Part shown: in pieces, positions 15,645 to 33,161 of the stretch
Layout: each line of letters starts with the position of its first letter
Numbering within the stretch: position 1 is the first letter of the stretch
Source: Marinobacterium aestuarii
GTDB lineage: Bacteria; Pseudomonadota; Gammaproteobacteria; Pseudomonadales; Balneatricaceae
Direction of reading: 5' to 3'
DNA: 64,000 bases
Assembly (NCBI RefSeq): GCF_001651805.1
Contig: NZ_CP015839.1
Coordinates: 744,001 to 808,000 of the forward strand
The notes under the pieces: generated by a model
What the model was told of the DNA's origin: nothing
What the model saw: the letters and a program-made list of their open reading frames with translations, nothing else
Database searches by the model: none
Position numbers and translations under genes: made by a program

Positions 15645-15653
15645 CACGGTTCT

Positions 15654-15675
15654 GGCCGGGCTTACGTGCCCGGCC
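15654..15675 (+). promoter_or_regulatory. Intercistronic hairpin dgcA-dgcB
   Basis: GGCCGGGC (15654-15661) pairs perfectly with GCCCGGCC (15668-15675) around a six-base loop. There is no T-run, so transcript stabilisation or partial attenuation within the operon is more likely than termination. Confidence 0.45.
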
Positions 15676-15743
15676 TGCTGTATTGGCTTCCTAATTTTGC
15701 GACGGGCCCGGCCTGTCGCTCCCTGTTTTGGTGAGGGTGACGC

Positions 15744-18928: not shown

Positions 18929-18957
18929 ACAGACTGACCGCAACGGGAGGGTCGAAC

Positions 18958-19734
18958 ATGTCATCTGATCTCAATATCGTTGCCCTGGTGTCTATCGGGC
19001 AGCACCCCAAGTCGGGCCGTGCGCGCCGCGCCGAGCAGGATGCACGCGCCGTGGAGCTGGGTCTGCGTCTGGCCGGTGAGCGGGTGCAGGTACTGCATGC
19101 CGGTGATGCGGCGGATGAGTCTCTGCGCCAGTATGCCGGCATGGGGCTGAAAAGCCTGCGGATACTGCAGCAGTCGGCGGATGCCGATGCGGTGGTGGCC
19201 CTCGGCGATTACCTTAATGAGCATCGCCCCGATGTGGTGCTGACCGGGGTGCGCGCCGAAAGCGGCGAGTCTTCCGGCATGGCGCCTTATCTGCTGGCCG
19301 AGAAACTGGGCTGGCCGCTGGTGACACGTATTGCCGATATCGTCAGCATAGAAAACGGTGAAGCACAGATTCTGCAGGCGTTACCGCGCGGGCAGCGCCG
19401 GGCCATTCAGGTGCGTCTGCCTTTCGTGGCCAGTGTTGATATGGCGGCGACGGCAGGGCGCCAGAGTGCCTATGGGCCGGGTCGCCGTGCGCAGCTTGAG
19501 GCCATGCCCTGGGTTGAAACCGCCGATAGCGAACGTACCCAGTGGCAGCATGCACCTGCGCGCAAGCGGCCAAAACGCCTCAAGAAGGTCAAGGCCACGA
19601 CGGCTGCCGAGCGTTTCAAGGCGGCCACGGCCAAGTCTCAGGGCACCGGCGGGCGCATTATCAAGGATCAGCCAGCGGTAGAACAGGCGCAGGCCATTTT
19701 TGATCTGCTGCTCGAAGAGGGCGTGATTCGATAA
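18958..19734 (+). CDS. etfB: Electron transfer flavoprotein beta subunit (dgc-associated)
   Basis: This 258-residue protein has the ETF beta fold: an N-terminal beta-strand NIVALVSIGQHPKSG, then ARAVELGLRLAGERVQVLHAGD, ADAVVALGDYLNEHRPDVVL, and GVRAESGESSGMAPYLLAEKLGWPL, the subunit-interface segment, near residues 98-122. The C-terminal tail is basic (KRPKRLKKVKA), which may be the docking arm for partner enzymes. It starts 29 bases after the alpha gene with GGGAGG as ribosome site and is the last gene of the dgc operon. It is shorter in conserved motifs than housekeeping ETF beta, so automated tools may leave it unnamed. Confidence 0.85.
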   Translation: MSSDLNIVALVSIGQHPKSGRARRAEQDARAVELGLRLAGERVQVLHAGDAADESLRQYAGMGLKSLRILQQSADADAVVALGDYLNEHRPDVVLTGVRAESGESSGMAPYLLAEKLGWPLVTRIADIVSIENGEAQILQALPRGQRRAIQVRLPFVASVDMAATAGRQSAYGPGRRAQLEAMPWVETADSERTQWQHAPARKRPKRLKKVKATTAAERFKAATAKSQGTGGRIIKDQPAVEQAQAIFDLLLEEGVIR

Positions 19735-20053
19735 TTGTCGTTATTGCGACAGTTACCGATTAATAGTCGGTAACTGTCGTAAAAAGAATATCCGGTGACG
19801 AATTCAGACATTCCACTTAAGTAAATCAGCGGTATTATCTTTCCACGGTGGCGCAGGTTATATCTGCTCAGGGTGAACTCACCATTCACCGGATATTCCT
19901 GTTATCACTGTTATCGTATTGCTCCAGAGGAGCTGCAGTTAGGTCGCTTATTCGACTTTCTCCAGCGTCCGTTAGGCTCAGGTGTTTGCAATATTCACCT
20001 TCATCTTGTGTACCAATTACGGCTTTTATCCGGGCACTTGCCCGGATTTTTTT
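19735..20053 (+). ncRNA. Structured non-coding region between etfB and its terminator (candidate 3'UTR RNA)
   Basis: No coding frame is credible. The stretch contains a perfect 13-base-pair hairpin (19747-19759 with 19767-19779, seven-base loop), a long-range pair of 13 bases (about 19786-19798, GAATATCCGGTGA, with its exact complement at about 19889-19901), and small hairpins such as GCTCC-AGA-GGAGC near 19921. It ends at a rho-independent terminator. It could be a long operon 3'UTR, a processed small RNA, or an attenuator. No known RNA family is recognised. Confidence 0.4.
20028..20053 (+). terminator. Rho-independent terminator of the dgc-etf operon
   Basis: ATCCGGGC (20028-20035) pairs perfectly with GCCCGGAT (20040-20047), loop ACTT, followed by a T-run to 20053. 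It lies 294 bases after the etfB stop. Confidence 0.85.
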
Positions 20054-20113
20054 ATACATGGACCTATTTATCGTTATTTGCTCCTGCAATAACGAATTTT
20101 CCGCCATCCAGCT

Positions 20114-20797
20114 TCAGAAATAGAGTTTCAGGACGGAGTCGGCGACGCAGACGATGCGCCCCGAGCCCTCGACCTCCACCTTGATCTGGTTAACCATTTC
20201 CACGCTGCGCTTGGACGGTACCAGGGACTGAAGGCTGGTGCGGGCGCGGATTCGGCTGCCAGCCTTGACCGGATGCGGGAAACGAACCTGGTTGAGGCCG
20301 CAGTTGATTACCATGCGGGCCTCGGGGTAGGGGGGCCTTTGCGGATTGACGGTATCGGTCAGGTCCGGCAATAGCGACAGGATCAGAAAGCCGTGGGCGA
20401 TGGTGCCACCGAAGGGTGATTCGTTGCGGGCACGTTCCGGGTCTGTGTGAATCCACTGGCGGTCCCCCGTCACATCGGCGAAACGGTCGATGCGCGACTG
20501 ATCGATCGTCATCCAGTGACCGACGAACAGTTCATGGCCGATGTGCGCCTGCCACTCGTGATAGAAGTCGGCCACCTTGGGGTTCTTCACGGCCTGCAGG
20601 TCGCGACCGCCGGCAGGGTCGAGAATCAGATGGATTCTCGACACCCAGGAGTTGTTCAGCGTGTTGTTCAGCGAGTGGCTGATGAAGTAGGACAGCTGGC
20701 GCAGGTGAGCGTCGGACGTGTTTTTGAGATCAAGACGGCCGAGTCGCACTCTGATCGAGCGTTCTTTCTCGCGGATATATTCGAAAACGTCCATCAT
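20114..20797 (-). CDS. MaoC/NodN-like hydratase (last gene of the acyl cluster)
   Basis: This 227-residue protein has a C-terminal hot-dog MaoC domain (about residues 85-225) with the hydratase signature: FADVTGDRQWIHTDPERA contains the catalytic Asp and His, followed by SPFGGTIAHGFLILSLLP. The first 80 residues are a poorly conserved alpha-helical extension. MaoC enzymes hydrate or dehydrate acyl-CoA or acyl-ACP at the 2,3 position. In this operon the substrate is probably an acyl-ACP made by the fatty acyl-AMP ligase and ACP upstream. Two adjacent ATGs are possible (20797 or 20794); AGGA fits the second slightly better. It lies 43 bases after the phosphopantetheinyl transferase gene. Confidence 0.8.
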   Translation of the reverse strand: MMDVFEYIREKERSIRVRLGRLDLKNTSDAHLRQLSYFISHSLNNTLNNSWVSRIHLILDPAGGRDLQAVKNPKVADFYHEWQAHIGHELFVGHWMTIDQSRIDRFADVTGDRQWIHTDPERARNESPFGGTIAHGFLILSLLPDLTDTVNPQRPPYPEARMVINCGLNQVRFPHPVKAGSRIRARTSLQSLVPSKRSVEMVNQIKVEVEGSGRIVCVADSVLKLYF

Positions 20798-20840
20798 CAG
20801 ATCCTGTCTGGGTGGTACCGGAGCGGCAAGCCGGCTCCGG

Positions 20841-21638
20841 CTATGGCGATATCAGATCGGTCGCCAGCATTGTGTGGGGTGCCGGGACCGTCCTGCTGCC
20901 AGGGCGGGCAAAGGGCAGTAGCGATATCCCGGGCAATTCGGGCGGGCCCTGCGCTGGGGCGATCAGTGCCAGGCAGAGTCGGTAGCGCTGCAGACAGGGG
21001 AGACGGAACCAGAAGCTGCCCTGGCCCAGTCGTGTTCCCCGCTGCCAGCAGGAAGGCTCTGCCGCCTCCGGCGGCGCCAGATCGAAGTCGAGTTCGGCGA
21101 AGGGAAGCCGCAGGCCCAGGCCGAATGCCTTTGACACGGCTTCCTTGATACACCAGGCCCGCGCCAGCAGCGCACCCCGTTCAGCCGTCGGTATCGCCTG
21201 CAGTGCCCTGTATTGTACGGGGCTCAGCAGCCGCCGGGTACAGATACCTGCGCCAAGATCCCGGCTGATCGGCTCGATATCCAGCCCCGGCTCAAGCCTG
21301 CGACTGAGCGCGACGGCCACGCCCCCATCGCTGTGGGAAATACTGAAGCCCGGCGCGGGTTGGTGCAGCACCCTGGGCTTGCCCTGGCCGGCGGTGGTGA
21401 TCTCCCAGGCGGCGGGGGCTATTTGCCCGCCACTCTCGGCGGACAGCGCATGGCGCAGCAGGTAACGGCCGAGCAGAAAGTGGAGGCTGGCCTCACGGCT
21501 GACGGTGGCCCGGTAGCGGGCGCACTCTGCGACGCTCAGCGTGGCGAAAATAGGCGCCGGGTTGAGTGCCAGCAGCGGCGCGAATGCGCTGGTGGTCGCA
21601 AGCCAGATGCGGATATCGCCGGGTGCCTGTGTCTGCAT
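20841..21638 (-). CDS. 4'-phosphopantetheinyl transferase, Sfp type
   Basis: This 265-residue Sfp-superfamily enzyme converts apo carrier proteins to the holo form by transferring phosphopantetheine from CoA to a serine. Key motifs are present: FSISHSDGGVAVALS, GLDIEPISRD with the Mg-binding Asp and Glu, and WCIKEAVSKAFGLGL with the W-x-x-KEA-x-x-K signature. Its obvious partner is the ACP encoded at 27058-27330 in the same operon. A dedicated Sfp-type transferase in the operon is typical of secondary-metabolite clusters and indicates that the housekeeping AcpS may not serve this ACP. It starts nine bases after the outer-membrane protein gene. Confidence 0.9.
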   Translation of the reverse strand: MQTQAPGDIRIWLATTSAFAPLLALNPAPIFATLSVAECARYRATVSREASLHFLLGRYLLRHALSAESGGQIAPAAWEITTAGQGKPRVLHQPAPGFSISHSDGGVAVALSRRLEPGLDIEPISRDLGAGICTRRLLSPVQYRALQAIPTAERGALLARAWCIKEAVSKAFGLGLRLPFAELDFDLAPPEAAEPSCWQRGTRLGQGSFWFRLPCLQRYRLCLALIAPAQGPPELPGISLLPFARPGSRTVPAPHTMLATDLISP

Positions 21639-21647
21639 GGTCGGGAA

Positions 21648-22835
21648 TCAGAACGAATAGTGCAGCTTGATTTCGATAAAATCCTCGTCCCGGACCGGGT
21701 ACAGCCAGCTATCCTCGGGCGTGGCGTTGAGGAACAGCAGCGCCCGCGTTTCGATCCTGACATAGTCGTTCAGGCGGTGGTTCAGGCTCAGATCCAGGTA
21801 GTTGGCATGGCTGTCGAAGTCGTAGCTGACCAGGCCCCGAAACTGGCTGTTGCCGATATCGCCAAAGGTTGATTTGAGCCCGATGAACAGATCGTTCTGG
21901 CCCAGGCTTTCGGCCTGCTCATCCCGGTCATCGATCAGGTACTCGGCGATCAGCGACAGGTCCTGAAGGCCATCCGGAAGCGAATATACCGGCACCTCGA
22001 GGCCGATATTGGCGCTGAAGAACCCCTGGCCCCGTTCGCGGCCAGTTTTGGCTTCCAGCTTCAGGATCGTATCATCGACCAGATAGAGTGCGTCCAGCAG
22101 CAGGTTTTCGGTTTCGATATACCAGGGTGTCAGCTCCCTGGCGCTGCCGCTGCTTATTAGCAGCGGTGCCCGACGGGTACCCTTGAAGTAGCCGAGCCCG
22201 ACTTCGAGATCACCGAGGTACAGCTGGCTGCGCAGCGCGAGCTCGCCGCCGTGGTCGGAGCTCTCGAACTGGGCGTGATCCGAGACCGGCAGCCCGAATG
22301 ACGGGCGCTGCGAAAACTCGCGTTCGCGAAAGGTCGGCAGGTAGTACAGCGACAGCTCGCCGGTGTCGAACCGCAGGCTCATTGAGGCGAAGGTCTGCCC
22401 CAACTTGTCCTTGCCATCGACGGCCTGGCGCAGGTCCGCCTGGTTCAGCACATTGACGACATTGATGGACTCAGAAACGCCCCAGAAAAAGGTCCCGACA
22501 CCGGCACTGAACGAGAGCCGGTCATGGCGCCACTGTGCGCTGGCCTGACGGATATCGGCATAGCGGCGGCTCTCGTCCTCGGCATCCCAGCTGCCGAACA
22601 GGCGCAGCTTGAGGTCGGCGTCGCCAATACGACCGCTGGCGTCCATCTGGCCCTGCAGACCTGGCGAGCGGCGGTAATCGCCCGCGTCGGCCGGGGACGC
22701 GGCCCCATGGGCGAAGGCGCGGTAGCTGGCGGCGATGTCCACCGAGTGGCTGTCGATGGCGCCGTCGGCGAGAGCCGGTGGCGCGAGCAGGCACAGGCAC
22801 AGCAGTGGCTGAGCCGATGAGCGAAGAAACCCCAT
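21648..22835 (-). CDS. Outer-membrane beta-barrel protein of the acyl cluster
   Basis: This 395-residue secreted protein has a signal peptide (hydrophobic PLLCLCLLAPPALA, cleavage before DGAID near residue 24). It then has alternating amphipathic strands rich in Tyr, Phe and Leu (SLRFDTGELSLYYLPTF, GELALRSQLYLGDLEVGLGY, NYLDLSLNHRLND) and ends KLHYSF, the C-terminal aromatic residue recognised by the BAM machinery. No named family is certain. Such barrels occur next to MMPL/RND exporters and LolA-like proteins, which are encoded immediately upstream here. I infer that it is the outer-membrane end of an export or lipid-placement route. Only five bases separate it from the LolA-like gene. Confidence 0.75.
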   Translation of the reverse strand: MGFLRSSAQPLLCLCLLAPPALADGAIDSHSVDIAASYRAFAHGAASPADAGDYRRSPGLQGQMDASGRIGDADLKLRLFGSWDAEDESRRYADIRQASAQWRHDRLSFSAGVGTFFWGVSESINVVNVLNQADLRQAVDGKDKLGQTFASMSLRFDTGELSLYYLPTFREREFSQRPSFGLPVSDHAQFESSDHGGELALRSQLYLGDLEVGLGYFKGTRRAPLLISSGSARELTPWYIETENLLLDALYLVDDTILKLEAKTGRERGQGFFSANIGLEVPVYSLPDGLQDLSLIAEYLIDDRDEQAESLGQNDLFIGLKSTFGDIGNSQFRGLVSYDFDSHANYLDLSLNHRLNDYVRIETRALLFLNATPEDSWLYPVRDEDFIEIKLHYSF

Positions 22836-22840
22836 CCTGA

Positions 22841-23653
22841 TCAGTCCTTCAGCGTATTGCGATGGAAGTTTTCGTCCGAGAGGCCATTGCCGAAACGGAT
22901 GCTCCTGTAGCTCAGGATCGTTTCGTTACCGGTCTGCTGATTGTGCATCGCCACCTGCATCGGTCGCCAGTGACGGTCGCTGTAGAGCTGAAAGTTCTCT
23001 GCGGTAAAGGTCTTGAGCAGCGTGCCCCGGCGGTCGAAATACTCGATGCGGAGGACCCGCCGGGCCTGCTGGTCGGCCCAGACCCGCTGCCGGCTGTAAG
23101 CGGAGTGCGTGTCGACGGGCATGCGGTCTATGACATCACACCTGAGCGCGTTCGCGCCGCTGCCGTCATCGCATGCCTCTTCCCGGACATAGGCATAGTT
23201 GAAGTCGTCGATCTGCTTGTCGGCCAGGTCTTCAAACGAAAATTCGCTGCTGACGAAGGCGCCGCTCTTGTTGCGAGATGATATCCGCTTGATGCGCGCA
23301 TTGGCCGGCAGGTAAAGCCACTGTTCGTCGGCGGCGGCGTCTGGCTGCGGATGTGTGAGCAGGGCCGTGCCCCGGATATCGGCCGGAAAGTCAAAGCGTA
23401 TCAGCGACTTGTCGCCGCCCTCCGGGTTTTCGAGCAGGCGGATTTCGAGCTCGCGGGTGGTTTCATTGCCAGCCCGGTTGCGCAGAGTCATCGTCAGCTC
23501 GGCGACGCTGTCGCCGTAGCCCAGGTCGCGGTTTTCCACCGCCTCGGCCACCCGCCGTCCTGGGTCGGTCTGGTTTTGGGCGGCATTGGCCGGCAGGCTC
23601 AGCAGGCCGCACAGCAGCAGCGTGGCGCGGGGTCGCCGCAAATCAATTCGCAT
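22841..23653 (-). CDS. LolA-like outer-membrane lipoprotein-sorting protein
   Basis: This 270-residue periplasmic protein has an N-terminal signal (RATLLLCGLLSLPANAA, cleavage near residue 25). The mature part follows the LolA/LppX-like half-barrel family often named outer membrane lipoprotein-sorting protein: ELTMTLRNRAGNETTRELEIR, KSLIRFDFPADIRGTALLTH, QWLYLPANARIKRI, and KTFTAENFQLYSDRHWRPMQV are its typical successive strands. These proteins are usually encoded beside MMPL-type RND transporters and probably receive a hydrophobic cargo in the periplasm. Its start overlaps the end of the RND gene by about 11 bases, indicating coupled translation. Confidence 0.82.
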   Translation of the reverse strand: MRIDLRRPRATLLLCGLLSLPANAAQNQTDPGRRVAEAVENRDLGYGDSVAELTMTLRNRAGNETTRELEIRLLENPEGGDKSLIRFDFPADIRGTALLTHPQPDAAADEQWLYLPANARIKRISSRNKSGAFVSSEFSFEDLADKQIDDFNYAYVREEACDDGSGANALRCDVIDRMPVDTHSAYSRQRVWADQQARRVLRIEYFDRRGTLLKTFTAENFQLYSDRHWRPMQVAMHNQQTGNETILSYRSIRFGNGLSDENFHRNTLKD

Positions 23654-25976
23654 CCTGAAGCTCCTCTGCTTTGCGAAAGTATCGGGCCGCCGAGGTCGGT
23701 ACCCGGCGCAGAAACGAGAGCACCAGTGCCGGCAGCAGTAGCAGGTCGAACAGCAGCGCCAGCACGATGGTGATACTGGTCAGCATGCCCATTTGGGCGT
23801 TCTTTTCGAAGGCGGAGGTCGACAGCAACAGAAAGCCTGCGACCAGCAGCAGCGAACTGATCACAATGCCGCCCATCGTCTTGCTGAAGGTTTCCCGCAC
23901 GCTGTCTTCGGGCGTCAGGCCGCGCTTCAGGCCATTGATGTACTGGTAGATGAAATGCACGGTGTCGTCGACAATAATGCCAATCGCCATCGCCGAGACA
24001 CCGGCCAGGCCCATGGAAATCTGACCGTTGATGCAATACCAGAATCCGAAGGCGGCCGCGACCGGCAACAGATTGGGAATCAGGCTGAGCAGGCCGATGT
24101 AGAAGGACCCGAAGACCAGCATCAGCATGATTGAAATCACCACGAACGCCAGGGATGCGCCCTGCAGCAGGCTGATGATATTGGACTCGCCAATGTGCGC
24201 GAAGATGACGGCGGGGCTGCTGTGGTAGATCTCGATCGTCGCGGGCTGGTGCTGCCAGAGCCAGCCTTGTGCCCGCTCCTCGAAGGCTATCAGCCCGAGG
24301 GAGCTGAGATTCTGTAACCGCGCGGTCAGTTTCGCCGCGGACTTGTCGAAGCTGACCTGGTGGGTCACGTCGCGGCCGAACGGCAGCGACATCTCGTACA
24401 GCAGGAATTGCTGGGCGGCGGTGGTGGCGTCGGCCGGCAGGCGATAAAAGGCCGCGTCGCCTCCGTTCATCAGGCGGTTCAGGTCCTTGATGCGGTGCAG
24501 CGGGCTGGAGGTCGTGACCACCTCCGGCTGCTCCAGCAGCCAGGCATCGAACTGCCCCAGGAAGCGCAGGAACCCGGGCTCGAAGATGCCGCTCTGCTGC
24601 GACGCCGAGAGCGAATAGTCGATGGTGTAGATGCCGGAAAAATGCGCATCGATCCGTTCCGAATCGGCGCGGAACGTCTGCGACTTGTCGAAGTAGCGGA
24701 TCAGGTCGTCGTTGAGCGCGTTCAGCGGGCTGAGCGCTGCAATAGCCAGTGCCAGCGGCAGCATCAGCCACAGAACCGGACGCCGGCGCCGGATCACCCA
24801 GTCGGACAACCGGCTCATTCGCTCGAACAACCGGGTGGTGGCAGTGGTTCGGGCTGAAAACCGCAGCCGTAGCAACAGTTGCGGCAGCACTGTGACCGTC
24901 AGAAGCAGCGAAAACAGCACCCCCAGCGCCACTATATTGCCCAGATCCCTGAACGGCGGCGAATCGCTGAAGTTCATCGCCAGAAAGCCGACTATGGTGG
25001 TCAGGTGGCTCACGGTGATGGGTTTGATATTGCGCTGATACGACTGCAGTACCGCGTCATGCCGGGGCAGGCCTGCGGCGATCTGGCGCTTGATGTAGCT
25101 GAGAATATGGATGGCCGAGGCCACAATCACCGTGAACATGATGATCGGGGCCGAGACAGAGGGCGCGGACAGCCGAATGCCGAGCCAGCCGGCCATGCCC
25201 AGGGAGCCGCACAGCGCCAGCACGACGATGACCAGAATGGCGCCGGCTGCGGCCGGCGACCCCAGGATAAGACCGGCGCTGATCAGCACGAAAACGATCA
25301 TCAGCGGAATCAGTGTCACGAAGTCCTTCTTCGCCGCCTTGAAGAAGGCGCCGTTCATTTCCACCACCCCGGTCTGGTAGAAATGGTGCCCGGGATTGGC
25401 CGCCTGGTACACTGCGACCAGTTCATCGACGCCGTCGGTGACGGCGAGGACTTCAGCCTTGTTGTCCAGACCCGGCAGCCGGGTGGTGACGTTGATAGCC
25501 GTGTAGCGGCCATCCGCCGTCACCAGGTTGCCCACCAGGTCTCGCTCCTGGCCGGCGGCCGCTGCGATGAAGGCGATCCGCTCGGGGGTGATTTCGTCGA
25601 GTTCGTAGACGAACTCTTCGATCAGGATGTCGTCACCGTCGGCCGAACTGTAGGGGAAGTTGGTCAGCGAATCGACGCGTGAAACATGGGGCAGGCGCCA
25701 GAGTGCCTGCGTCAGTTCATGCACCAGCCTGAGCGTATCAGCGTTGTAGACGCCGTCATCGGCCGGTGGCTCGATCATGATAAAGACGTTGTCGGTGGTG
25801 CTGTAGGTATCCTGCATTTGCTCCAGGCGCAGCAGGTCGCTGTCGTCTTCATCGAAGAAAATGCGGTAGTCGCTGGCCAGTCCCATGCGTGTCAGACCGG
25901 CGGCCGACACGAGGGTCAGCAGCAGCACCAGTGCCATCAGCCAGCGGCTGGCGCGGGATTCCATAAGCCAGTGCAT
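23643..25976 (-). CDS. RND/MMPL-family lipid exporter
   Basis: This 777-residue inner-membrane protein has the duplicated RND layout: TM1 near residues 12-30, a large periplasmic loop, five clustered TMs (about 225-360), TM7 near 400-420, a second loop, and five C-terminal TMs (about 620-760). Sterol-sensing/MMPL-like segments such as FVLISAGLILGSP and GLAGVSAMAIGIIVDDTVHF are visible. ATG 25976 (AGGA upstream) is preferred: an upstream in-frame extension would be an arginine-rich non-family stretch overlapping the previous gene. Relatives export lipids or hopanoids rather than drugs. No membrane-fusion or TolC-type gene is nearby; instead a LolA-like protein and a barrel follow. Confidence 0.88.
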   Translation of the reverse strand: MHWLMESRASRWLMALVLLLTLVSAAGLTRMGLASDYRIFFDEDDSDLLRLEQMQDTYSTTDNVFIMIEPPADDGVYNADTLRLVHELTQALWRLPHVSRVDSLTNFPYSSADGDDILIEEFVYELDEITPERIAFIAAAAGQERDLVGNLVTADGRYTAINVTTRLPGLDNKAEVLAVTDGVDELVAVYQAANPGHHFYQTGVVEMNGAFFKAAKKDFVTLIPLMIVFVLISAGLILGSPAAAGAILVIVVLALCGSLGMAGWLGIRLSAPSVSAPIIMFTVIVASAIHILSYIKRQIAAGLPRHDAVLQSYQRNIKPITVSHLTTIVGFLAMNFSDSPPFRDLGNIVALGVLFSLLLTVTVLPQLLLRLRFSARTTATTRLFERMSRLSDWVIRRRRPVLWLMLPLALAIAALSPLNALNDDLIRYFDKSQTFRADSERIDAHFSGIYTIDYSLSASQQSGIFEPGFLRFLGQFDAWLLEQPEVVTTSSPLHRIKDLNRLMNGGDAAFYRLPADATTAAQQFLLYEMSLPFGRDVTHQVSFDKSAAKLTARLQNLSSLGLIAFEERAQGWLWQHQPATIEIYHSSPAVIFAHIGESNIISLLQGASLAFVVISIMLMLVFGSFYIGLLSLIPNLLPVAAAFGFWYCINGQISMGLAGVSAMAIGIIVDDTVHFIYQYINGLKRGLTPEDSVRETFSKTMGGIVISSLLLVAGFLLLSTSAFEKNAQMGMLTSITIVLALLFDLLLLPALVLSFLRRVPTSAARYFRKAEELQDAN

Positions 25977-25990
25977 CCGTTTTCCTGCGT

Positions 25991-27058
25991 TCAAAGCGCG
26001 TCTTCCCTGTTCGATAAAAAGCTGCGCAGCGGCGCCATGATCCTGTCGACGTCTGCTTCGACGCCCATCACCAGCTCCGAGGCCCGGCAGCTGAGCCATT
26101 TGCGGCCCACCACGAACAGGCCGGGCTCCGGGGTCTTGCCGTAGTCCTCGACGAAGCCGTCGGCACCGATGCAGTGGGGCAGATTCAGCCACTGGGTGTC
26201 GTCCCGGTAACCGGTGGCCCAGATGACGCAGTCGACGTCGCGCCATTGGTCCCCTTTAAAGCGCAGGCGCCGGCCCGAGCATTCCAGCGCCCGGCCGACG
26301 ACCTCGACCCCGCGGGCCTGCAGGTGGCGATTGCTGTAGTCGCCGCAGGGGACCGGGTTGCGCTTTTTCAGTATCCGGGCCACCAGGCTGTTCTTGTCGG
26401 CGTACAGGATCCGCAGCTTGTCGAGCCACCAGAAGATATCGCGCTTGAGTATCCGGTTGGGTGTCAGGCCCCGGGGCGAACCGGTCGCCAGGATCACTGT
26501 ACAGCGCTTTGCCAGCCGGTCGGCGATCTGCCGGCCGCTAGCGCCGTCGCCAACGACGGCGACGGTGCTGCGGTCGGCGATCGAGGCGGTGGAACTGAGT
26601 CCGGCGTCCAGTTGCCGGACGCTGGCATCGAGTTGCTGGCCCATCATCGGCATCTGGGGCAGCTGGTTGGCACCGGTGGCGTTGACGATACTGCTGGCCC
26701 GCAGCTCGGTGCCATCCTGGAGTTTGACCAGAAAACCTGCCGGTTCGACACGTTCCAGGCTGACGACTTTGGCCTGGTCTTGAATCTGCAGTTTGTGATG
26801 TTGTGCGTACTGACTCAGGTAGTCGGCCATTTCGGCCACGGATGCAAAGCCCTCCGGATCACCGGGAAACGGCAGCTCAGGAAGGGCGCAGAACTGACGC
26901 GAGGTGAACAGCTGCATACCCTCCAGCCGCTTGCGCCAGGTGTCGCCGATCCGGTCCCGCTCCAGCAGCAGGTAGCTAAAGCCGGCCTGCTGCAGCCTGC
27001 GCGCGGTATGCAGACCGAACTGGCCGCCGCCGATGACAATGCAATCGTACGGCGGCAT
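25991..27058 (-). CDS. Flavin-dependent monooxygenase/oxidoreductase (CzcO-like)
   Basis: This 355-residue flavoprotein has two dinucleotide-binding motifs: FAD site IVIGGGQFGLHTARRL at residues 7-22 and NADPH site VAVVGDGASGRQIADRL near residue 168. Between them is the ERDRIGDTWRKR segment typical of the flavin-containing and Baeyer-Villiger monooxygenase superfamily, and ATGYRDD near 280 is the C-terminal ATG motif. The full BVMO fingerprint FxGxxxHxxxW is not evident, so it may be an N- or S-oxygenase or a reductase. In this operon it probably oxidises an ACP-bound or free acyl product. Its ATG overlaps the ACP stop by one base. Confidence 0.82.
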   Translation of the reverse strand: MPPYDCIVIGGGQFGLHTARRLQQAGFSYLLLERDRIGDTWRKRLEGMQLFTSRQFCALPELPFPGDPEGFASVAEMADYLSQYAQHHKLQIQDQAKVVSLERVEPAGFLVKLQDGTELRASSIVNATGANQLPQMPMMGQQLDASVRQLDAGLSSTASIADRSTVAVVGDGASGRQIADRLAKRCTVILATGSPRGLTPNRILKRDIFWWLDKLRILYADKNSLVARILKKRNPVPCGDYSNRHLQARGVEVVGRALECSGRRLRFKGDQWRDVDCVIWATGYRDDTQWLNLPHCIGADGFVEDYGKTPEPGLFVVGRKWLSCRASELVMGVEADVDRIMAPLRSFLSNREDAL

Positions 27059-27330
27059 CAGCTAGGCTCCCCGGCCTGAGTGCCGAAACGCTGCTCCAGG
27101 TGCGCGATCAGGGCATTGATGGTCGGGTAGTCGAATGCCAGCGTCGGATCGACTTCGACACTCAGCTGATCTTCGATAAGGGTCGACAGGCGCACATGGT
27201 CCGCAGAGTCCAGGCCCAGGCTTGAAAAGGACGTATCCCGGTGTGCATCGATTGAGAACTCGGGAGTCTTGGCTGCAATGAAGCTGGCGATCTGTTCCAC
27301 CAGTGTTGCCGTGCAAAGCTTGGTTGTCAT
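27058..27330 (-). CDS. Acyl carrier protein of the acyl cluster
   Basis: This 90-residue discrete carrier has the helix-II attachment motif SSLGLDSADHVRL; Ser42 is the predicted phosphopantetheine site. The rest (LVEQIASFIAAKTPEF, then FDYPTINALIAHLEQRFG) has the length and spacing of polyketide/nonribosomal-type carriers rather than of the fatty-acid AcpP. It lies directly after the fatty acyl-AMP ligase gene (16 bases), the arrangement in which the ligase loads the ACP. The Sfp-type transferase in the same operon would activate it. No ketosynthase is encoded in the window, so chain extension on this ACP is not supported. Confidence 0.9.
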   Translation of the reverse strand: MTTKLCTATLVEQIASFIAAKTPEFSIDAHRDTSFSSLGLDSADHVRLSTLIEDQLSVEVDPTLAFDYPTINALIAHLEQRFGTQAGEPS

Positions 27331-27346
27331 CTTGGTTTCCTCAGGT

Positions 27347-29062
27347 CTAGGCGGGGAGCGCCCGTTCGGCGGTGATCAGTTCCCGGCAGGCGGTGCGTTT
27401 GACCTTGCCGCTGGTGGTTTTCGGAATACCGCCGGGTTTGACCAGCAGCAGCCGATCTAGGGCCACATCGTGCGCCGCCATCACCGCCTCGCGCAGCTCA
27501 AGACGCAGCTGTGCGTGATCCTCATTGAGAAAGGCGTTGCGTCGAATTTCGACGATCGCCGCCAGTCGGGTTTCGCCGTCGATCTCCAGCGTGAATACCG
27601 AGGCGCCGTTGTTGCCGGCGGCGTGGGGATGGCTGTTGCAGCTGCGCTCGATATCGTAGGGGTACAGGTTGCGCCCCCGCAGGATCAGCATTTCCTTGAT
27701 GCGTCCGGTGACAAACAGCCGGCCCTGGTGCAGGAAGCCCATATCCCCTGTTCTCAGGTAGTACCGACTGTCGGCAGGCACCAGCTGGGCCCGAAACTGC
27801 TGAGCGCTGATTTCGGGCTGGTTCAGATAGCCCTGGGCGACGGAGGCGCCGCTGATCCAGATCTCGCCAATGCTGTCGGCCTCGCAGAGGCTGCCGCTGG
27901 CGGGGTCGACGATCTTCAGGTCCAGCTGTGGCGTGACCAGGCCGCAGTTGACTACCCGGCGCCCCTCGGCAGCCGGATGCAGGCGGCCACGGTCAAAGCT
28001 TGCGGGTTCGAACGTCAGGGTCTCGATACCGCAGCCCGCCGGTCCCCCGGAAACGAACAGGGTGGTTTCCGCCATGCCGTAGCAGGGAAAGAAGGCTGCA
28101 GAATCAAAGCCATGGGCCTGAAATCGGTCGGCAAAGGCGTGCATGGTGTCGGCGCTGACCGGTTCCGAGCCGTTCAGCGCCACCGTCCAGCAACTCAGAT
28201 CGAGGCCGGACAGGTCCTCGCGCTCGGCAATGAATTTGACGCAGTGTTCGTAGCCGAAGTTCGGCGCGGCTGAGCTCTGGATTCGGTAATGGGAGATCAG
28301 CTCGAGCCAGCGGCGCGGGCGCTGCACGAAGTTCATCGGCGGCATGAAGACGTAGGTGCCGCCCAGGAACAACGGCTGCAGCAGATGGCCGATGAGGCCC
28401 ATGTCGTGGAACTGGGGCAACCAGCCGCCGGCGATCAGGCCGGGCTCATGACCGCAGGCTTGCTGAATCGCCAGCTGGTTGTCGACGATATTGGCGTGAC
28501 TGACCATGACGCCCTTGGGCAGGCCGGTGGAGCCCGAGGTGTACTGGACGAAGGCCAGTTGGCGAGGGTCAGGCGGTGGCAACGGGAGGGGGTCCGCGGG
28601 GCCCGTCTGGTGTTCGTCGATCCAGTCCTGGCCGTGCAGGTCGACCTGGGGCAGTTGCGCCAATTGTTCCGCCAGCAGTGCCCGGCTATGGGCCGTGGTG
28701 AGGATGGCCTGGGTCCTGGCATCCTCGAGAATGCGCAGGGTGCGTTCAAGCTGCTGTGCGTTACGGCTCAGGTTGAGGGGCACGGCAACGGCGCCGGCGG
28801 CGAGGCAGGCGAGAAAGTTGACGACGAAATCGAGCCCGCTGGGGAACAGCAGCGCCACCGGCTGGCCGCTGTACCCGCGCTCTACCAGCAGGCGCGCCCG
28901 GTCGAGCACCTGCCGATTCAGTTCCGCGTAGCTCAGTGAGCGGGCGGTATCGGTCCCCTGGGGTTGAAAGACGCAGGCGGTTTGATCGCCATGGCGGGCG
29001 ACATGGCCGTCGAAGGCCTCCATGAAACGCAGCGGCGGGGCAGGTTGATCCTTCATTTTCAT
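27347..29062 (-). CDS. Fatty acyl-AMP ligase (FAAL)
   Basis: This 571-residue adenylate-forming enzyme activates a carboxylic acid as acyl-AMP and hands it to a carrier protein. Motifs: P-loop VQYTSGSTGLPKGVMVSHAN near residue 165, WLPQFHDMGLIGHLL, GSEPVSADTMHAFADRF, YGMAETTLFVSGG, and ISGASVAQGYLNQPE, which follow the FAAL/FadD32-type pattern rather than acyl-CoA ligases. The hinge GRIKEMLILRGRNLYPYDIE and the C-terminal catalytic lysine in TTSGKVKR are intact. The ATG at 29062 is preferred to a GTG five codons earlier that overlaps the previous gene; AGAGGA precedes it. The partner ACP gene follows within 16 bases. It is probably the entry enzyme for a fatty acid. Confidence 0.9.
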   Translation of the reverse strand: MKMKDQPAPPLRFMEAFDGHVARHGDQTACVFQPQGTDTARSLSYAELNRQVLDRARLLVERGYSGQPVALLFPSGLDFVVNFLACLAAGAVAVPLNLSRNAQQLERTLRILEDARTQAILTTAHSRALLAEQLAQLPQVDLHGQDWIDEHQTGPADPLPLPPPDPRQLAFVQYTSGSTGLPKGVMVSHANIVDNQLAIQQACGHEPGLIAGGWLPQFHDMGLIGHLLQPLFLGGTYVFMPPMNFVQRPRRWLELISHYRIQSSAAPNFGYEHCVKFIAEREDLSGLDLSCWTVALNGSEPVSADTMHAFADRFQAHGFDSAAFFPCYGMAETTLFVSGGPAGCGIETLTFEPASFDRGRLHPAAEGRRVVNCGLVTPQLDLKIVDPASGSLCEADSIGEIWISGASVAQGYLNQPEISAQQFRAQLVPADSRYYLRTGDMGFLHQGRLFVTGRIKEMLILRGRNLYPYDIERSCNSHPHAAGNNGASVFTLEIDGETRLAAIVEIRRNAFLNEDHAQLRLELREAVMAAHDVALDRLLLVKPGGIPKTTSGKVKRTACRELITAERALPA

Positions 29063-29069
29063 CGTTCCT

Positions 29070-30251
29070 CTATCCACCGAAGCCCATGGCCTGCAGCTGT
29101 TTCACCCGGCGCTCAAGGGAGGTGGCGAAACGATCGATGTCGTCCAGGCGCGTGAAGCGGCCGAAGCTGATCCGGATCGCGCTCTGAATTCTCTCCTCGT
29201 CCAGGCCCATGGCCAGGAGGACAGGGGATAGCTGTTTTGTCTTGTTGTTGCTGCAGGCGGATCCGATCGACACCACCATGCCTTCCTTCCTTTCCATCAG
29301 AACGGCGAGTGCCTCGCCCCTGATACCCGGGATCGACAGGTTGAGAGTGTTGGAAATGGCGGCCTCGTAGGTGCTGGCGCCATTGATGTGGGTCTGAATA
29401 TCGGCGTGCTTCAGTCGCTCGATTAATCGCTGCTTGCACGCCAGGCTGTGTTGATCCCAGGCTGAAAGTTCCCTGTAACACTCGTCGGCGGCGGCGCCAA
29501 GACCCGCGATGGCGACAAGATTTTCGGTGCCCGATCGCATCGCCATTTCCTGGCCGCCGCCGTGGATCAGCGGTGAGAGGCGCTCAATATTGCGGACGTA
29601 GAGGCCGCCGATTCCCTTGGGACCGTAGAACTTGTGCGCCGAGAAGGAAACGAAGTCGGCTCCCAGCGACTCGACATTGAAGGCCCGTTTCCCGACTGCC
29701 TGAACCGCATCGACATGAAACGGAATGCCGCGCTTGCGGGCGAGTTTTGCCACCTGCTCGACCGGCTGGATAACACCGGTTTCGTTGTTGGCATACATCA
29801 TCGATATCAGGCGGGTGTCGGGCCGGATGGCGACGGCCATAGCATCGACGGAGACGGCACCGCTGGCATCCGGGTGCAGACAGGTTACCTCGAAGCCGAA
29901 CTGCTGGGCACAATAACGGATGGTTTCGAGCACCGACGGATGCTCAAGCGCGGTGGTCAGGATGTGGCCAGCGCGGGGCAGGTCATTCAGCAGGCTGCCC
30001 TTGATCGCCCAGTTGTTGGACTCGGAACCGCCGGAGGTGAAAAAAACGTGCGCAGGCTCGGTGCCCAGCAGGCGCGCGACCCTTTCTTTGGAGCTCTGCA
30101 TCAGCTCGCGGTTGCTGGTCGAGGGCGCTGTACGCCCCGATGGATTGGCGAAGCGCCGCAGCGCGGCGCTCATCGCCTGGGCCGCGGCTTCGGACACCGG
30201 TGTGGTGGCGTTGTAGTCGAAATAGCCTTTGATCGCGTCTGTCTGGGTCAT
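29070..30251 (-). CDS. Cysteine desulfurase of the acyl cluster (NifS/IscS type)
   Basis: This 393-residue PLP enzyme converts cysteine to alanine and a protein-bound persulfide. It has GYFDYNATTPVS at the start, His104 in TALEHPSV, Asp181, the PLP lysine Lys207 in SAHKFYGPKG, and the persulfide Cys333 in SIGSACSNN, so it should be active. The length and the Cys loop are of the group I (NifS/IscS) type. It overlaps the scaffold gene by four bases (ATGA). A dedicated copy inside an acyl-ligase/ACP operon points either to sulfur insertion into the product or to maturation of a cluster enzyme; no iron-sulfur enzyme is evident in the operon. Confidence 0.9.
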   Translation of the reverse strand: MTQTDAIKGYFDYNATTPVSEAAAQAMSAALRRFANPSGRTAPSTSNRELMQSSKERVARLLGTEPAHVFFTSGGSESNNWAIKGSLLNDLPRAGHILTTALEHPSVLETIRYCAQQFGFEVTCLHPDASGAVSVDAMAVAIRPDTRLISMMYANNETGVIQPVEQVAKLARKRGIPFHVDAVQAVGKRAFNVESLGADFVSFSAHKFYGPKGIGGLYVRNIERLSPLIHGGGQEMAMRSGTENLVAIAGLGAAADECYRELSAWDQHSLACKQRLIERLKHADIQTHINGASTYEAAISNTLNLSIPGIRGEALAVLMERKEGMVVSIGSACSNNKTKQLSPVLLAMGLDEERIQSAIRISFGRFTRLDDIDRFATSLERRVKQLQAMGFGG

Positions 30252-30628
30252 GCCGGAATCTCCCGGCTAGCGCGTTCGACCTGTGCCAACAGCCGTTGAT
30301 GCAGCTGCTGCAGAATTTCGACGCAGTGGTGCTGAGACGGTTCAAGCTCACCGAGCATGGCCTCTATCTCGCGATCACTGCGCTGCGCGAGCCGCTGCAG
30401 CGGCTGAGCGTTGAGTGAGGCACAGAAGATGTTCGCCGTCGCGACCGAAGTGGCGCAGCCCCAGGCTCTGAACCGGGCCCGCTCAATTTGCCCGTCAGTG
30501 GCACTGATCTGGATACGGATACGGTCTCCGCACACCGGATTGCCGATCTCGTACTCGTAAGCAGGCCCGTCGATGTCGCCGACGTGGGCCGGATCGGAAA
30601 AGTTGTCGATAATGATGTCGTTGTACAT
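30248..30628 (-). CDS. IscU/NifU-N-like scaffold protein
   Basis: This 126-residue protein matches the NifU N-terminal/IscU scaffold family, which assembles [2Fe-2S] clusters with sulfur from a cysteine desulfurase. The three ligand cysteines and the key aspartate are retained: Cys33 and Asp35 in GNPVCGD, Cys58 in WGCATSVATAN, Cys102 in QHHCVEIL. The family's chaperone motif LPPVK between the last two is not seen, as in SufU or NifU-like relatives. ATG 30628 follows GGGAG at seven bases; a longer in-frame start would overlap the previous gene with arginine-rich text. It is encoded between the LuxE-like and desulfurase genes. Confidence 0.85.
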   Translation of the reverse strand: MYNDIIIDNFSDPAHVGDIDGPAYEYEIGNPVCGDRIRIQISATDGQIERARFRAWGCATSVATANIFCASLNAQPLQRLAQRSDREIEAMLGELEPSQHHCVEILQQLHQRLLAQVERASREIPA

Positions 30629-30653
30629 GCAGCAGCTCCCTGTCAGCGTACGG

Positions 30654-31841
30654 TCAGGCGACAATTGGACAGTTGTCGGCGGCGGCCGGCGCAGCCTCAA
30701 GATCGTCCAGGCGCTTGTCCAGGTTGACGGCGCAACAACCGAACTCCTTCGACTCGGGCAGGCGCATCACGTACTGCATGCGCTGTCCGCTACGTCCGGA
30801 GCGGCTGGGCTCGGGCAGCAGCCGGACCAGGTCCTCGGTCAGCATGAAGCCAGGGGTCGAGCGGGCGAGGGGGTCGAGAATCGCCAGCTGGCCGATTTCT
30901 CCCGGGGCGACTTCGCGGTCCAGTTGCTTGGGATCGCGCACCGAAAAGTGGATGAAGGGAGATACGTGCTTGACGCCATGTTCGTCGTCAATCGCGACGA
31001 CATTCGATTCGACCAGGGCATAGATATCGCGGATCTGGCTTTCCTCGACCCCCAGGTATTCCATGCATTCCTGGTTGAATTCGGCGCGAGACAGCATCTG
31101 GCCCGAGAAGCGTTTCCAGCCGCCGAGCGTGATGACATAGCTACTCTTGTCCAGCTTGAGGCGGGTGTTGGTGGCCTTGAGGTAGCTGATGAAGCGGTTG
31201 ATCAGGAAGGGCGGGCCTATGATGTGGCGACTGAACTTGTGATTCCAGTCATTGAGCTGCGCCAGCGCGTCTTCGGGCTTGAACGACTCCTGCCGGACCA
31301 TGAAACGGTGGGTATCGAGCAGACCGGCCAGCATGTTAAGCGCCTTGATCATGCCCATTTCCGGAATTTCCTCGGTCGATGGGCAGAGGTACAGGCCTGC
31401 CCCCTTGGAAATTTCCAGGAACTCGCGGTACATCGCATAGATGCCCATGACCGCGTTGTCGACCGTATCGCTGCAGCGGCGGGATACGCTCGGGATGCCA
31501 GAAGTGCCGGTGCTGCGCATTTCCAGCTCGATGTCGCGCAGGCTGACGGAAAGCAGCTTGTGACTGTCATTGGCTTTGAATAGCTCAATGGGAATAAGCG
31601 GTATTTTGATCAGGTCTTCCGGCGCCTCGATGGACTCAGGCGTTATACCTTTACTGTCGCAGGCAGATCGAAAAAAGGCGTTGTTTGCGTAATGGAGATG
31701 GAAGGCGTCGCGGATCAAGCCGGTTTTAAATTCCAGCAGGGTTTCGTCGGACATGGAATAAAGTTCCGACACCGATGAAAGAGCAACCTTCAAAGGGTCC
31801 AGTCCATTTTTCTTTAGCATGCTTTGCAGTTCGGCCGACAT
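30654..31841 (-). CDS. LuxE-like acyl-protein synthetase (first gene of the acyl cluster)
   Basis: This 395-residue adenylate-forming protein is of the LuxE (acyl-protein synthetase) family, which forms acyl-AMP and passes the acyl group to its own cysteine. Visible: EMRSTGTSGIPSVSRR at residues 107-122 (phosphate-binding loop), LGGWKRFSGQ near 239, DIYALVESN near 272 in place of the adenine motif, and GCC at 368-370 near the C-terminus as a candidate acyl-carrying cysteine. ATG 31841 follows GGAG at seven bases. In luminous bacteria LuxE serves the LuxC reductase; no luxC, luxD or luciferase gene is present here. It heads the operon and would supply or transfer an acyl group. Confidence 0.82.
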   Translation of the reverse strand: MSAELQSMLKKNGLDPLKVALSSVSELYSMSDETLLEFKTGLIRDAFHLHYANNAFFRSACDSKGITPESIEAPEDLIKIPLIPIELFKANDSHKLLSVSLRDIELEMRSTGTSGIPSVSRRCSDTVDNAVMGIYAMYREFLEISKGAGLYLCPSTEEIPEMGMIKALNMLAGLLDTHRFMVRQESFKPEDALAQLNDWNHKFSRHIIGPPFLINRFISYLKATNTRLKLDKSSYVITLGGWKRFSGQMLSRAEFNQECMEYLGVEESQIRDIYALVESNVVAIDDEHGVKHVSPFIHFSVRDPKQLDREVAPGEIGQLAILDPLARSTPGFMLTEDLVRLLPEPSRSGRSGQRMQYVMRLPESKEFGCCAVNLDKRLDDLEAAPAAADNCPIVA

Positions 31842-32560
31842 TTTAGTCTCCTTTAAAAGTCTTGTGGGGATATGGCTTTTATCGTCGGTACCCAGGTGCT
31901 TTCTTATTTTGCTTGGCAACCCCCGCGATGGGACGGCCGGGCAACGGCCTGGGTGCCGTTGCGCCTGGCGGCTCGATACTGGGGTGCTGCCTGATTGCAG
32001 GACTGACGATCGGAAGTGGTGCACGGACGCTTAGGCCACGGGTTCTGGCTCTAGACGCCGTTTTGCACCCGGCAATGTGACCAATCTTGGAAGGGCTAAA
32101 TAAGGTAAATAGCATTCTCGCTTTGCTTCCCTGGACCCGTTAGCAACGGCTCCTCGCATTTCACACTTTTTAGTTGTTTGGCCGCGGCGCATCCTGGTGC
32201 GCACTGCGATCAGGGCAAAAGGGTATTGAACGGTCAATTCAAAGTCAAATATTTAAACGCCTGTTTGAAATGAATTTTTAAAGTCACTCGCGTACGTAAG
32301 TATTGACGGTCGAGCGAATATTTTTTCATGGATTTCACGTCTTTTGTTTCCGAAATTATCGTTATTTCTAGTTTTGAACAGCTGTGTGTTTGTTGTTCTG
32401 TTTTGTGCTTTGTTTTTGAATTTTCGTTTAAATTAGGTAGTTTTGGTAATAGATAACGGGTAATGGTTGGCATTTTTTCGTGCCGCTGTTTGCACTATTT
32501 AAATGCAGGCACTTCTGGTTGTTCCGAAAATTCTGATTTTGACCTGCTGTCGGTAGTGTC
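31842..32560. other. AT-rich upstream region of the acyl cluster
   Basis: No coding frame is credible on either strand. The part 32230-32480 is strikingly AT-rich compared with the coding DNA around it, and it must hold or border the promoter of the 11-gene minus-strand operon. No regulator gene is encoded next to the operon. Confidence 0.5.
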
Positions 32561-33030
32561 ATCCCGATCGCGTCGGGTTGGGTCAGCTCCCGCCGTGCGG
32601 ACCTGTACTCGAGACTTCCGGTGCTCTAAGCCAAAACCCCGGGTTGATTCCGTCAGGCCCGCAAGCTTGGCTGAGCCGCAGTGGCAAGAAGCGGCAATGT
32701 GGTTTGGGCGACGTGGTGGTGTGTGGTGAGCATCAACCCGGGGAATTCGTGCAGCAGGGATGCTTCATCGTTGGGCATTCCGCCGAGAGAGAGGGCCTAA
32801 TGCGGGCTGTGCAGCTGCGCCCGTTATGTCGAGTGAAGGGCAGCCGGGTAGGTAAGTTGCTTGCCCAGCAGGTGAATAACGTCAGTGAATGGGCCGAAAA
32901 GGGGCCGGGGTCTGATAGCAAGGGTGGCGCTTACAGGTTCCCGATGTCGCCACGGGGGGATATTGGCAATGCTGATGTCGCTATCAGAACACTGGCGTCG
33001 GCGCTTGTTTGTAATATGGAGTCCCCATAG
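32561..33030 (+). other. GC-rich orphan patch, possible gene remnant
   Basis: About 450 bases of GC-rich sequence lie in AT-rich surroundings. A 150-codon frame (32578-33030) is open on the plus strand but has no ribosome site and no recognisable domain (readable bits: GEFVQQGCFIVGHSAE, GKLLAQQVNNVSEWA). It may be the remains of a mobile element or the leading part of a group II intron. I could not find a domain V hairpin or reverse transcriptase. Confidence 0.3.
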
Positions 33031-33082
33031 TGCCAGCTTAGTTCTGCGGGAGGCTTGTTTTAGTCCTTTATTAGGGTTAATG

Positions 33083-33108
33083 AATTTCGCAGAGATTATG
33101 TCGCGAAA
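33083..33108. promoter_or_regulatory. Dyad with TGTCGC word upstream of the BCCT gene
   Basis: ATTTCGC at 33083-33089 and GCGAAAT at 33102-33108 are inverted repeats. The right half reads TGTCGCGAAA (33099-33108), close to the TGTCGCAAA found between gbcA and gbcB. It lies about 55-80 bases before the transporter start. It is a candidate regulator site (GbdR suspected). Confidence 0.4.
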
Positions 33109-33161
33109 TATAACAATAACGACAAAATAATATCGAGCCCGACACGGGTGAGGAGTATTGA

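Follow-up and report, generated by a model that had tools for sequence, protein, structure and literature searches.

For what purpose would a bacterium encode a cysteine desulfurase and a NifU-like protein in one tight operon together with two fatty acid-activating enzymes? The question is raised by a stretch of the Marinobacterium aestuarii genome (5.19 Mb on a single contig) of which we analysed positions 744001-808000, a window of 64,000 nucleotides in whose own numbering the coordinates below are given. At 20114-31841 this window harbours eleven open reading frames (ORFs), all on the minus strand, which a first-pass annotation had read as a packed set of genes from named families. All of them were found at their places, ten matching the expected family in Pfam and the remaining one, a beta-barrel, being recognised from its structural model. 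Ten of the eleven genes are confirmed as one unit, while that of a MaoC-like hydratase has to be left out. Six of them, encoding a LuxE-like acyl-protein synthetase, a NifU-like carrier, a NifS-like desulfurase, a fatty acyl-AMP ligase (FAAL), an acyl carrier protein (ACP) and a flavin monooxygenase (FMO)-like flavoprotein, make up a conserved, horizontally mobile core which distant bacteria have come to share as a single entity. That these six genes serve a single pathway is almost certain, and it is likely that the sulfur handled by this pathway enters a small molecule. The observation made in the first pass is thus confirmed, its interpretation supported in part.

When 84,980 species genomes were scanned for the LuxE-like protein, 33 loci were obtained; since the scan patterns were derived from the query, the result is biased towards close relatives and should not be read as a census. 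In 30 of the 33 LuxE-matched loci the core genes follow one another in the order LuxE-NifU-NifS-FAAL-ACP-FMO with mostly short or overlapping junctions, an enzymatic sulfur source and acyl-activating enzymes (NifS, NifU, LuxE and FAAL) thereby sharing one cluster. Among the three exceptions, L035 reaches a contig end within the cluster, and a locus from a Granulosicoccaceae metagenome-assembled genome (L046:9989-12108) lacks the other core genes and has only a fragment of LuxE, cut by the DDE transposase gene that directly follows. The third, from Photobacterium lipolyticum (L034:14700-14900), possesses the other core genes and, after ACP, only the 5' part of the FMO gene followed by a stop. 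We considered a functional FMO-less core in this species and rejected it, as the remnant 5' end indicates a gene broken by deletion. The hosts comprise gamma-, beta- and alphaproteobacteria, with Shewanella, Photobacterium, Pseudoalteromonas, Pseudomonas, Cellvibrio, Xenorhabdus and, from another phylum, Priestia among the core-bearing genera, as well as one Nostocales assembly for which contamination is possible because its title gives low coverage. The best-matching locus is that of Marinobacterium sedimentorum (98% for LuxE). On plasmids of Priestia (Bacillota; 14 records, one of them read in detail) the order is FAAL-FMO-ACP followed by LuxE-NifU-NifS. As the two halves are swapped whole, the acyl and the sulfur module evidently travel as blocks and, as LuxE, NifU and NifS stay one block in both gene orders, the sulfur appears tied to acyl activation. 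In Pseudoduganella namucuonensis NifS and FAAL are naturally fused within a single frame of 983 amino acids (L028:11532-14483). Pairwise distances of the core genes, uncorrected for phylogeny, correlate with Spearman coefficients of 0.54-0.83, a correlation which shared descent alone would also yield. If only LuxE matches above 550 bits are counted, the core is rare: it occurs in 3 of 117 family genomes, in 3 of 369 from the class and in 2 of 399 from the phylum, three draws which share some genomes. Since all other LuxE matches score below about 165 bits, the core LuxE clade is sharply separated. A lack of co-occurrence in any other genome had been set beforehand as a refutation of the first-pass annotation; the six-gene core recurs across many genomes, and the claim survived.

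Operon gene 1 encodes the LuxE-like protein (30654-31841), which matches PF04443 with 126.8 bits against a gathering score of 24.9 (1.2e-36) and whose nearest solved relative is LuxE (7xc6_E). Its adenylation motif STGTSG is invariant among core relatives, and Cys369 aligns with the cysteine of the GCS motif in 7xc6, known as the acylated residue. Directly after it, Cys370 is present in every core LuxE covering the site, Priestia included; an adjacent pair of cysteines at this site occurs in none of 17 lower-scoring LuxE relatives from outside the clade. The NifU/IscU-like protein, a putative sulfur or Fe-S carrier of 126 amino acids (30248-30628; NifU_N, PF01592, 4.8e-19), has Cys33, Asp35, Cys58 and Cys102 in 34 of 34 sequences, so that the three cysteines and the aspartate of IscU/NifU scaffolds are present. 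His101 and Gln99 are invariant as well, the latter occupying the position of the IscU lysine. The motif LPPVK is missing: the protein of the window reads LEPSQ, its relatives show other LxPxQ forms, and the genome's own housekeeping IscU, which belongs to a separate isc pair located elsewhere, carries LPPVK. In the NifS-like cysteine desulfurase (29070-30251; Aminotran_5, PF00266, 1.8e-69) the pyridoxal phosphate lysine Lys207 and the catalytic loop cysteine Cys333 are found in 34 of 34 sequences, His104 being invariant too; its best NCBIfam model, TIGR03402, is matched with 348 bits, which is under the cut-off of that model. According to the Pfam assignment of the operon genes, the six-gene core encodes no Fe-S enzyme.

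Downstream follows the acyl module. The FAAL ORF opens with a GTG at 29077, the gene itself being placed at 27347-29062 (AMP-binding, PF00501, 3e-70). Fatty acyl-AMP ligase models top its NCBIfam ranking, all under their cut-offs, and FAAL structures including 3kxw, 3pbk, FadD28 and FadD32 lead the PDB search, which places the protein nearer to FAALs than to CoA ligases; Lys553 is invariant among relatives. ACP (27058-27330; PP-binding, PF00550, 1.4e-12) bears Asp41-Ser42 in 31 of 31 sequences, Ser42 being the residue for phosphopantetheine. The integrity of the active-site residues in NifS, NifU and ACP, as reported in the first pass, hence holds throughout the relatives. In nearly all loci the ACP gene is adjacent to that of the flavoprotein, the two mostly overlapping or abutting. 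This FMO-like NAD(P)H flavoprotein (25991-27058; Pyr_redox_3, PF13738, 1.6e-22) possesses both Rossmann glycine motifs and the FMO fold and is, by sequence as well as by structure among solved folds, nearest to SMFMO, PSFMO and CFMO, to which its identity amounts to about 20-23%. These enzymes oxidise sulfides (PMC4220118). Flavoprotein relatives outside the cluster score 200-285 bits, 285 being the highest value, and in the three or four of their neighbourhoods examined no other core gene was present. One of these relatives (L104) adjoins arsH-like and arsenic-like genes, as judged by eye.

How might these proteins cooperate? The NifS-like enzyme would draw sulfur from cysteine as a persulfide on Cys333 and pass it to the NifU-like protein, whose role would be to carry sulfur rather than to serve as an all-purpose Fe-S scaffold. 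The LuxE-like protein would provide an activated acyl group, initially as acyl-AMP and subsequently as a thioester on Cys369, and FAAL would activate a fatty acid and load it onto ACP, primed by either the phosphopantetheinyl transferase (PPTase) of the operon or a housekeeping one. The carrier persulfide, possibly parked on Cys370 of LuxE, would then attack the activated acyl group on Cys369 to give a fatty thiocarboxylic acid, whereby the pair of Cys369 and Cys370, which could keep acyl group and persulfide close to each other, would supply the reducing equivalents and, closing as a disulfide, release the thioacid. The flavoprotein would oxygenate the sulfur of this thioacid to an acylsulfenic-type product, which would leave the cell by whichever pump the lineage carries. 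Thiocarboxylates of the ThiS/MoaD type arise when a protein persulfide attacks an acyl-AMP or an acyl-thioester, and it is this chemistry that we favour, with LuxE as the meeting point. The parts of the proposal differ in probability. Entry of sulfur into the carboxyl group as a thioacid appears evenly balanced to us, and the mechanism as a whole, from the NifS/NifU relay via LuxE/FAAL acyl activation, thioacid formation and S-oxidation to export, falls slightly short of this balance. Oxidation of the thioacid sulfur by the flavoprotein is, taken by itself, a tentative assignment which we hold to be somewhat doubtful. The most specific version, in which a LuxE with vicinal cysteines is the carboxyl-sulfurating enzyme, served by its own NifS-NifU relay and by a flavoprotein S-oxygenase, and in which fatty thiocarboxylic or acylsulfenic acids are secreted, must be considered rather unlikely.

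All steps past desulfuration, i.e. sulfur transfer to the acyl carboxyl, the role of the cysteine pair, S-oxygenation and the identity of the product, we infer from the genes and their conservation. Sulfur incorporation into an acyl product is suggested because two ATP-dependent acyl activators, a carrier protein, a desulfurase with its own carrier and a flavoprotein are brought together with no Fe-S client. We count in favour of the proposed mechanism the core order in 30 of 33 loci, the Priestia block swap, the NifS-FAAL fusion, the correlated distances, the invariant catalytic residues, the restriction of Cys370 to core LuxE, the LPPVK-less NifU beside a separate isc pair, the lack of an Fe-S enzyme, the sulfide-oxidising nearest FMO relatives and the combination of one and the same core with differing exporter types. 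The earlier suggestion of sulfuration and oxygenation on an activated fatty acid fits this evidence. Several points, however, weigh against the mechanism. With its ligand set of three cysteines and an aspartate, the NifU-like protein could also bind an Fe-S cluster or zinc. The proteobacterial flavoproteins lack the FMO fingerprint FxGxxxHxxxY, of which Priestia keeps the His-to-Tyr part only; as the fingerprint is not conserved in the former, monooxygenase activity is not assured. Two acyl activators are redundant for one acyl group unless they work one after the other or each takes an acid of its own. The product is a prediction from gene content, and the comparison with the natural product sulfenicin, given below, goes back to a citation, reference 5 of PMC12300202 (doi 10.1038/s41557-025-01833-9).

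These points bear on the alternatives. That unrelated genes resemble a pathway in this window only has a negligible probability: only MaoC is a chance neighbour, and such a reading of the six-gene core is already refuted, as its order persists across classes in 30 of 33 loci and it also occurs on plasmids of another phylum. In another explanation the NifS/NifU pair would assemble an Fe-S cluster or provide another protein with sulfur, the secreted product being a sulfur-free oxidised fatty acid derivative. The NifU-like protein does retain the three cysteines and the aspartate used for cluster or zinc binding, and the NifS-like enzyme is most similar to NifS/IscS proteins serving Fe-S assembly. 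Yet the core is devoid of an Fe-S enzyme although, across phyla, it strictly retains NifS and NifU; the host is equipped with a separate isc pair, and the NifU-like protein lacks LPPVK, the motif for recognition by HscA, an invariant glutamine replacing the lysine before the last cysteine. We regard this explanation as improbable.

Sulfur might also be placed on the acyl chain or between acyl units, as a thiol, persulfide, disulfide or thioether. LuxE would then join the completed acyl group to another partner, while the ACP-bound chain would be hydroxylated by the flavoprotein or undergo Baeyer-Villiger oxidation by it. This would agree with the adjacency of ACP and FMO in nearly all loci, which fits FMO action on acyl-ACP; moreover, Baeyer-Villiger enzymes are among the related solved flavoproteins, and two acids would account for two activating enzymes. 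The core, however, contains no enzyme which typically forms C-S bonds on a chain (radical SAM, Michael-type thiolase), and the LuxE-NifU-NifS block is kept in both gene orders; we deem sulfur on the chain unlikely. As regards the flavoprotein, it could be a reductase which reduces an acyl-disulfide intermediate and thereby frees the thioacid, no oxidised sulfur being formed. The lack of a conserved FMO fingerprint and a weak similarity to YpdA-type bacillithiol disulfide reductases, noticeable in sequence and fold, point in this direction, but SMFMO-type enzymes are clearly closer. At the position which in the YpdA family holds the cysteine, the members have F, A, N, S or C. This position not being conserved, YpdA-like disulfide reduction was rejected as the main role of the flavoprotein, and the reductase explanation altogether is quite improbable.

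Returning to the proposed thioacid pathway, its export genes vary by lineage, comprising MMPL/LolA/barrel, EmrAB or none obvious. In the window the core is followed by genes of an MMPL/RND exporter (23643-25976; PF03176, 8.5e-39), a LolA-like periplasmic protein (22841-23653; LolA_like, PF17131, 4e-52) and the outer-membrane beta-barrel (21648-22835). The latter, a member of a nine-member family (A3), has no Pfam match; its AlphaFold2 model is a beta-barrel with a mean pLDDT of 78 which in Foldseek matches porins at TM-scores of only about 0.4-0.5. Many Gram-negative hosts have MMPL, LolA-like and barrel genes together with the core, MMPL and LolA being sometimes fused. Most Xenorhabdus loci harbour an EmrA/EmrB-type MFS pair in their place, and the Priestia plasmid unit has no envelope exporter. 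Delivery to the outer membrane, which the first-pass annotation had assumed, hence does not hold as a general feature, and it is more apt to speak of an exported product than of an outer-membrane lipid. Of the loci, only those of the two closest relatives gave a blast match to the Sfp-type PPTase (20841-21638; ACPS, PF01648, 3.6e-12); an AraC-type regulator adjoins the core in 16 loci. Among further neighbours, families of thiol chemistry flank the core in two lineages, OsmC in Xenorhabdus loci (e.g. L038:5114-5557 and L038:15846), and carboxymuconolactone decarboxylase-like (CMD) and DinB_2 genes in Priestia (L012:10429-10761, 16787-17257). They may provide self-protection against a thiol-reactive product or stand there by chance; being lineage-specific, they were rejected as proof of such a product and serve as a hint only. 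In Xenorhabdus anantnagensis (L040:10444-13607) a second class-V aminotransferase/desulfurase-like gene and an MFS transporter gene directly follow FMO.

The MaoC-like hydratase (20114-20797; PF01575, 1.1e-21) is probably not part of the pathway. The same MaoC gene, encoding 227 amino acids, resides at this site, between the genes of the electron transfer flavoprotein (ETF) and a BCCT transporter, in four congeners which lack the rest of the operon, and MaoC is missing from most relatives' loci. Its presence in these operon-free congeners identifies it as a resident flanking gene and led us to reject it as a pathway enzyme. The hydration step that had been proposed thereby loses its support, and the eleven-gene unit of the first pass is reduced to ten.

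The eleven genes are intact and tightly packed, from an 11-base overlap of LolA and MMPL to a 43-base gap between PPTase and MaoC. Probable start codons are ATG at 31841 (LuxE), 30628 (NifU), 29062 (FAAL) and 25976 (MMPL), with a ribosome-binding-like AGGAG just 5' of the LuxE ATG. A strong hairpin with a T run at 20028-20047, between the operon and a converging ETF operon, is only consistent with a terminator since such sites are no rarer in shuffled sequence. Comparison with five congeners by blastn delimits a variable segment of about 12.1 kb (20815-32924), made up of the operon and an AT-richer upstream region, which is absent between the same flanks in all five; homology resumes at 32925 in each of them. 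The segment excludes MaoC as four of the congeners keep this gene but not the rest of the operon. In the near-identical congener G030, which has a 100% identical EtfA, the DNA matches the window at 99.3% as far as 20072; homology is taken up again at 32925, and the two flanks are separated by about 250 bases, against 12.9 kb in the window. Insertion in the window genome and losses in the congeners both fit this pattern and cannot be told apart by it. The island borders were searched for mobile-element ends and showed no long direct repeats. The stretch from the ETF genes to the BCCT transporter (19735-33161) carries the operon in two species of the genus; G031 has there a siderophore-type set of IucA/IucC, Lys/Orn monooxygenase and decarboxylase, G029 has a set for uptake (periplasmic-binding/ABC/TonB), and G030 has little. 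As different gene sets occupy it in congeners (L117, L118, L119, L120, L121), it is a variable site. The roughly 1.1 kb 5' of LuxE (31842-32924), inside the variable segment, contain no recognisable genes, and the GC content drops to 51% at 32000-33000 compared to about 60-65% across most of the operon. On the far flank the BCCT transporter gene occupies 33162-34745; on the other side, dimethylglycine catabolism-like genes (dgcA/dgcB-like) and then the ETF subunit genes fill 13581-19734.

If the proposed mechanism is true, many marine, soil and insect-pathogen-associated bacteria would share a so far overlooked pathway by which a sulfur-containing fatty acid is made and secreted, and a LuxE-type enzyme would join the known ways of placing sulfur on a carboxyl group. 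The most specific version would mean that proteobacteria and Bacillota use a new enzyme logic and secrete a reactive-sulfur lipid of a new class. The mechanism would also provide a genomic handle on thioacid or acylsulfenic metabolites, which are labile and which ordinary chemistry easily misses. With just six genes, the core is of a size that can be transferred to a laboratory strain, which makes the question directly testable.

In open-licence literature we found no description of the LuxE/NifU/NifS/FAAL/ACP/FMO gene set, in agreement with the first-pass judgement that the combination is undescribed. Its parts are nevertheless related to known systems. With the LuxCDE fatty acid reductase the core shares the LuxE fold, the adenylation motif and the acyl-Cys position, but it has neither LuxC nor LuxD and its LuxE adds the invariant cysteine after the acylated one; aldehyde formation of the LuxCDE type was rejected since the operon contains no LuxC. 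The folds and active residues of the ISC and NIF pairs (IscS-IscU, NifS-NifU) are intact in the operon pair, which differs from them by the missing LPPVK, by glutamine in place of lysine, by being a second copy beside the housekeeping isc genes and by having no Fe-S client. SMFMO, PSFMO and CFMO have the same fold as the flavoprotein and are its best PDB sequence matches, albeit at the low identity given above and without conservation of the fingerprint. Operons of the acinetin-505 type combine FAAL, ACP, MMPL exporter, LolA-like protein and PPTase with a nonribosomal peptide synthetase (NRPS), and aryl polyene clusters combine MMPL and LolA export with ketosynthases. The present operon has such export and carrier genes in common with them but adds the sulfur module; according to their Pfam families, none of its genes encodes a polyketide synthase (PKS), an NRPS or a ketosynthase, and the earlier statement that ketosynthase and NRPS are lacking thus applies to the core. 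In the cassettes for thioplatensimycin, thioquinolobactin and pyridine-2,6-dithiocarboxylic acid an adenylated carboxylate meets a sulfur donor, as proposed here, with ubiquitin-like sulfur carriers or CoA-linked enzymes involved. Neither of these families is found by Pfam among the eleven genes; in the operon the carrier is NifU-like and the activator of LuxE or FAAL type. Sulfenicin, the subject of a 2025 study by Xue et al. in Nat. Chem., is reportedly an acylsulfenic acid and a hybrid of polyketide and nonribosomal peptide made by a marine Streptomyces, in whose formation a flavin-dependent S-hydroxylase is said to act on a thiocarboxylic acid; by this account nature does produce a functional group of the kind proposed here. 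Whereas that pathway reportedly relies on PKS/NRPS, the operon encodes a dedicated LuxE-NifU-NifS set; the likeness of the two would consist in a carboxyl-bound sulfur and its hydroxylation by a flavin enzyme.

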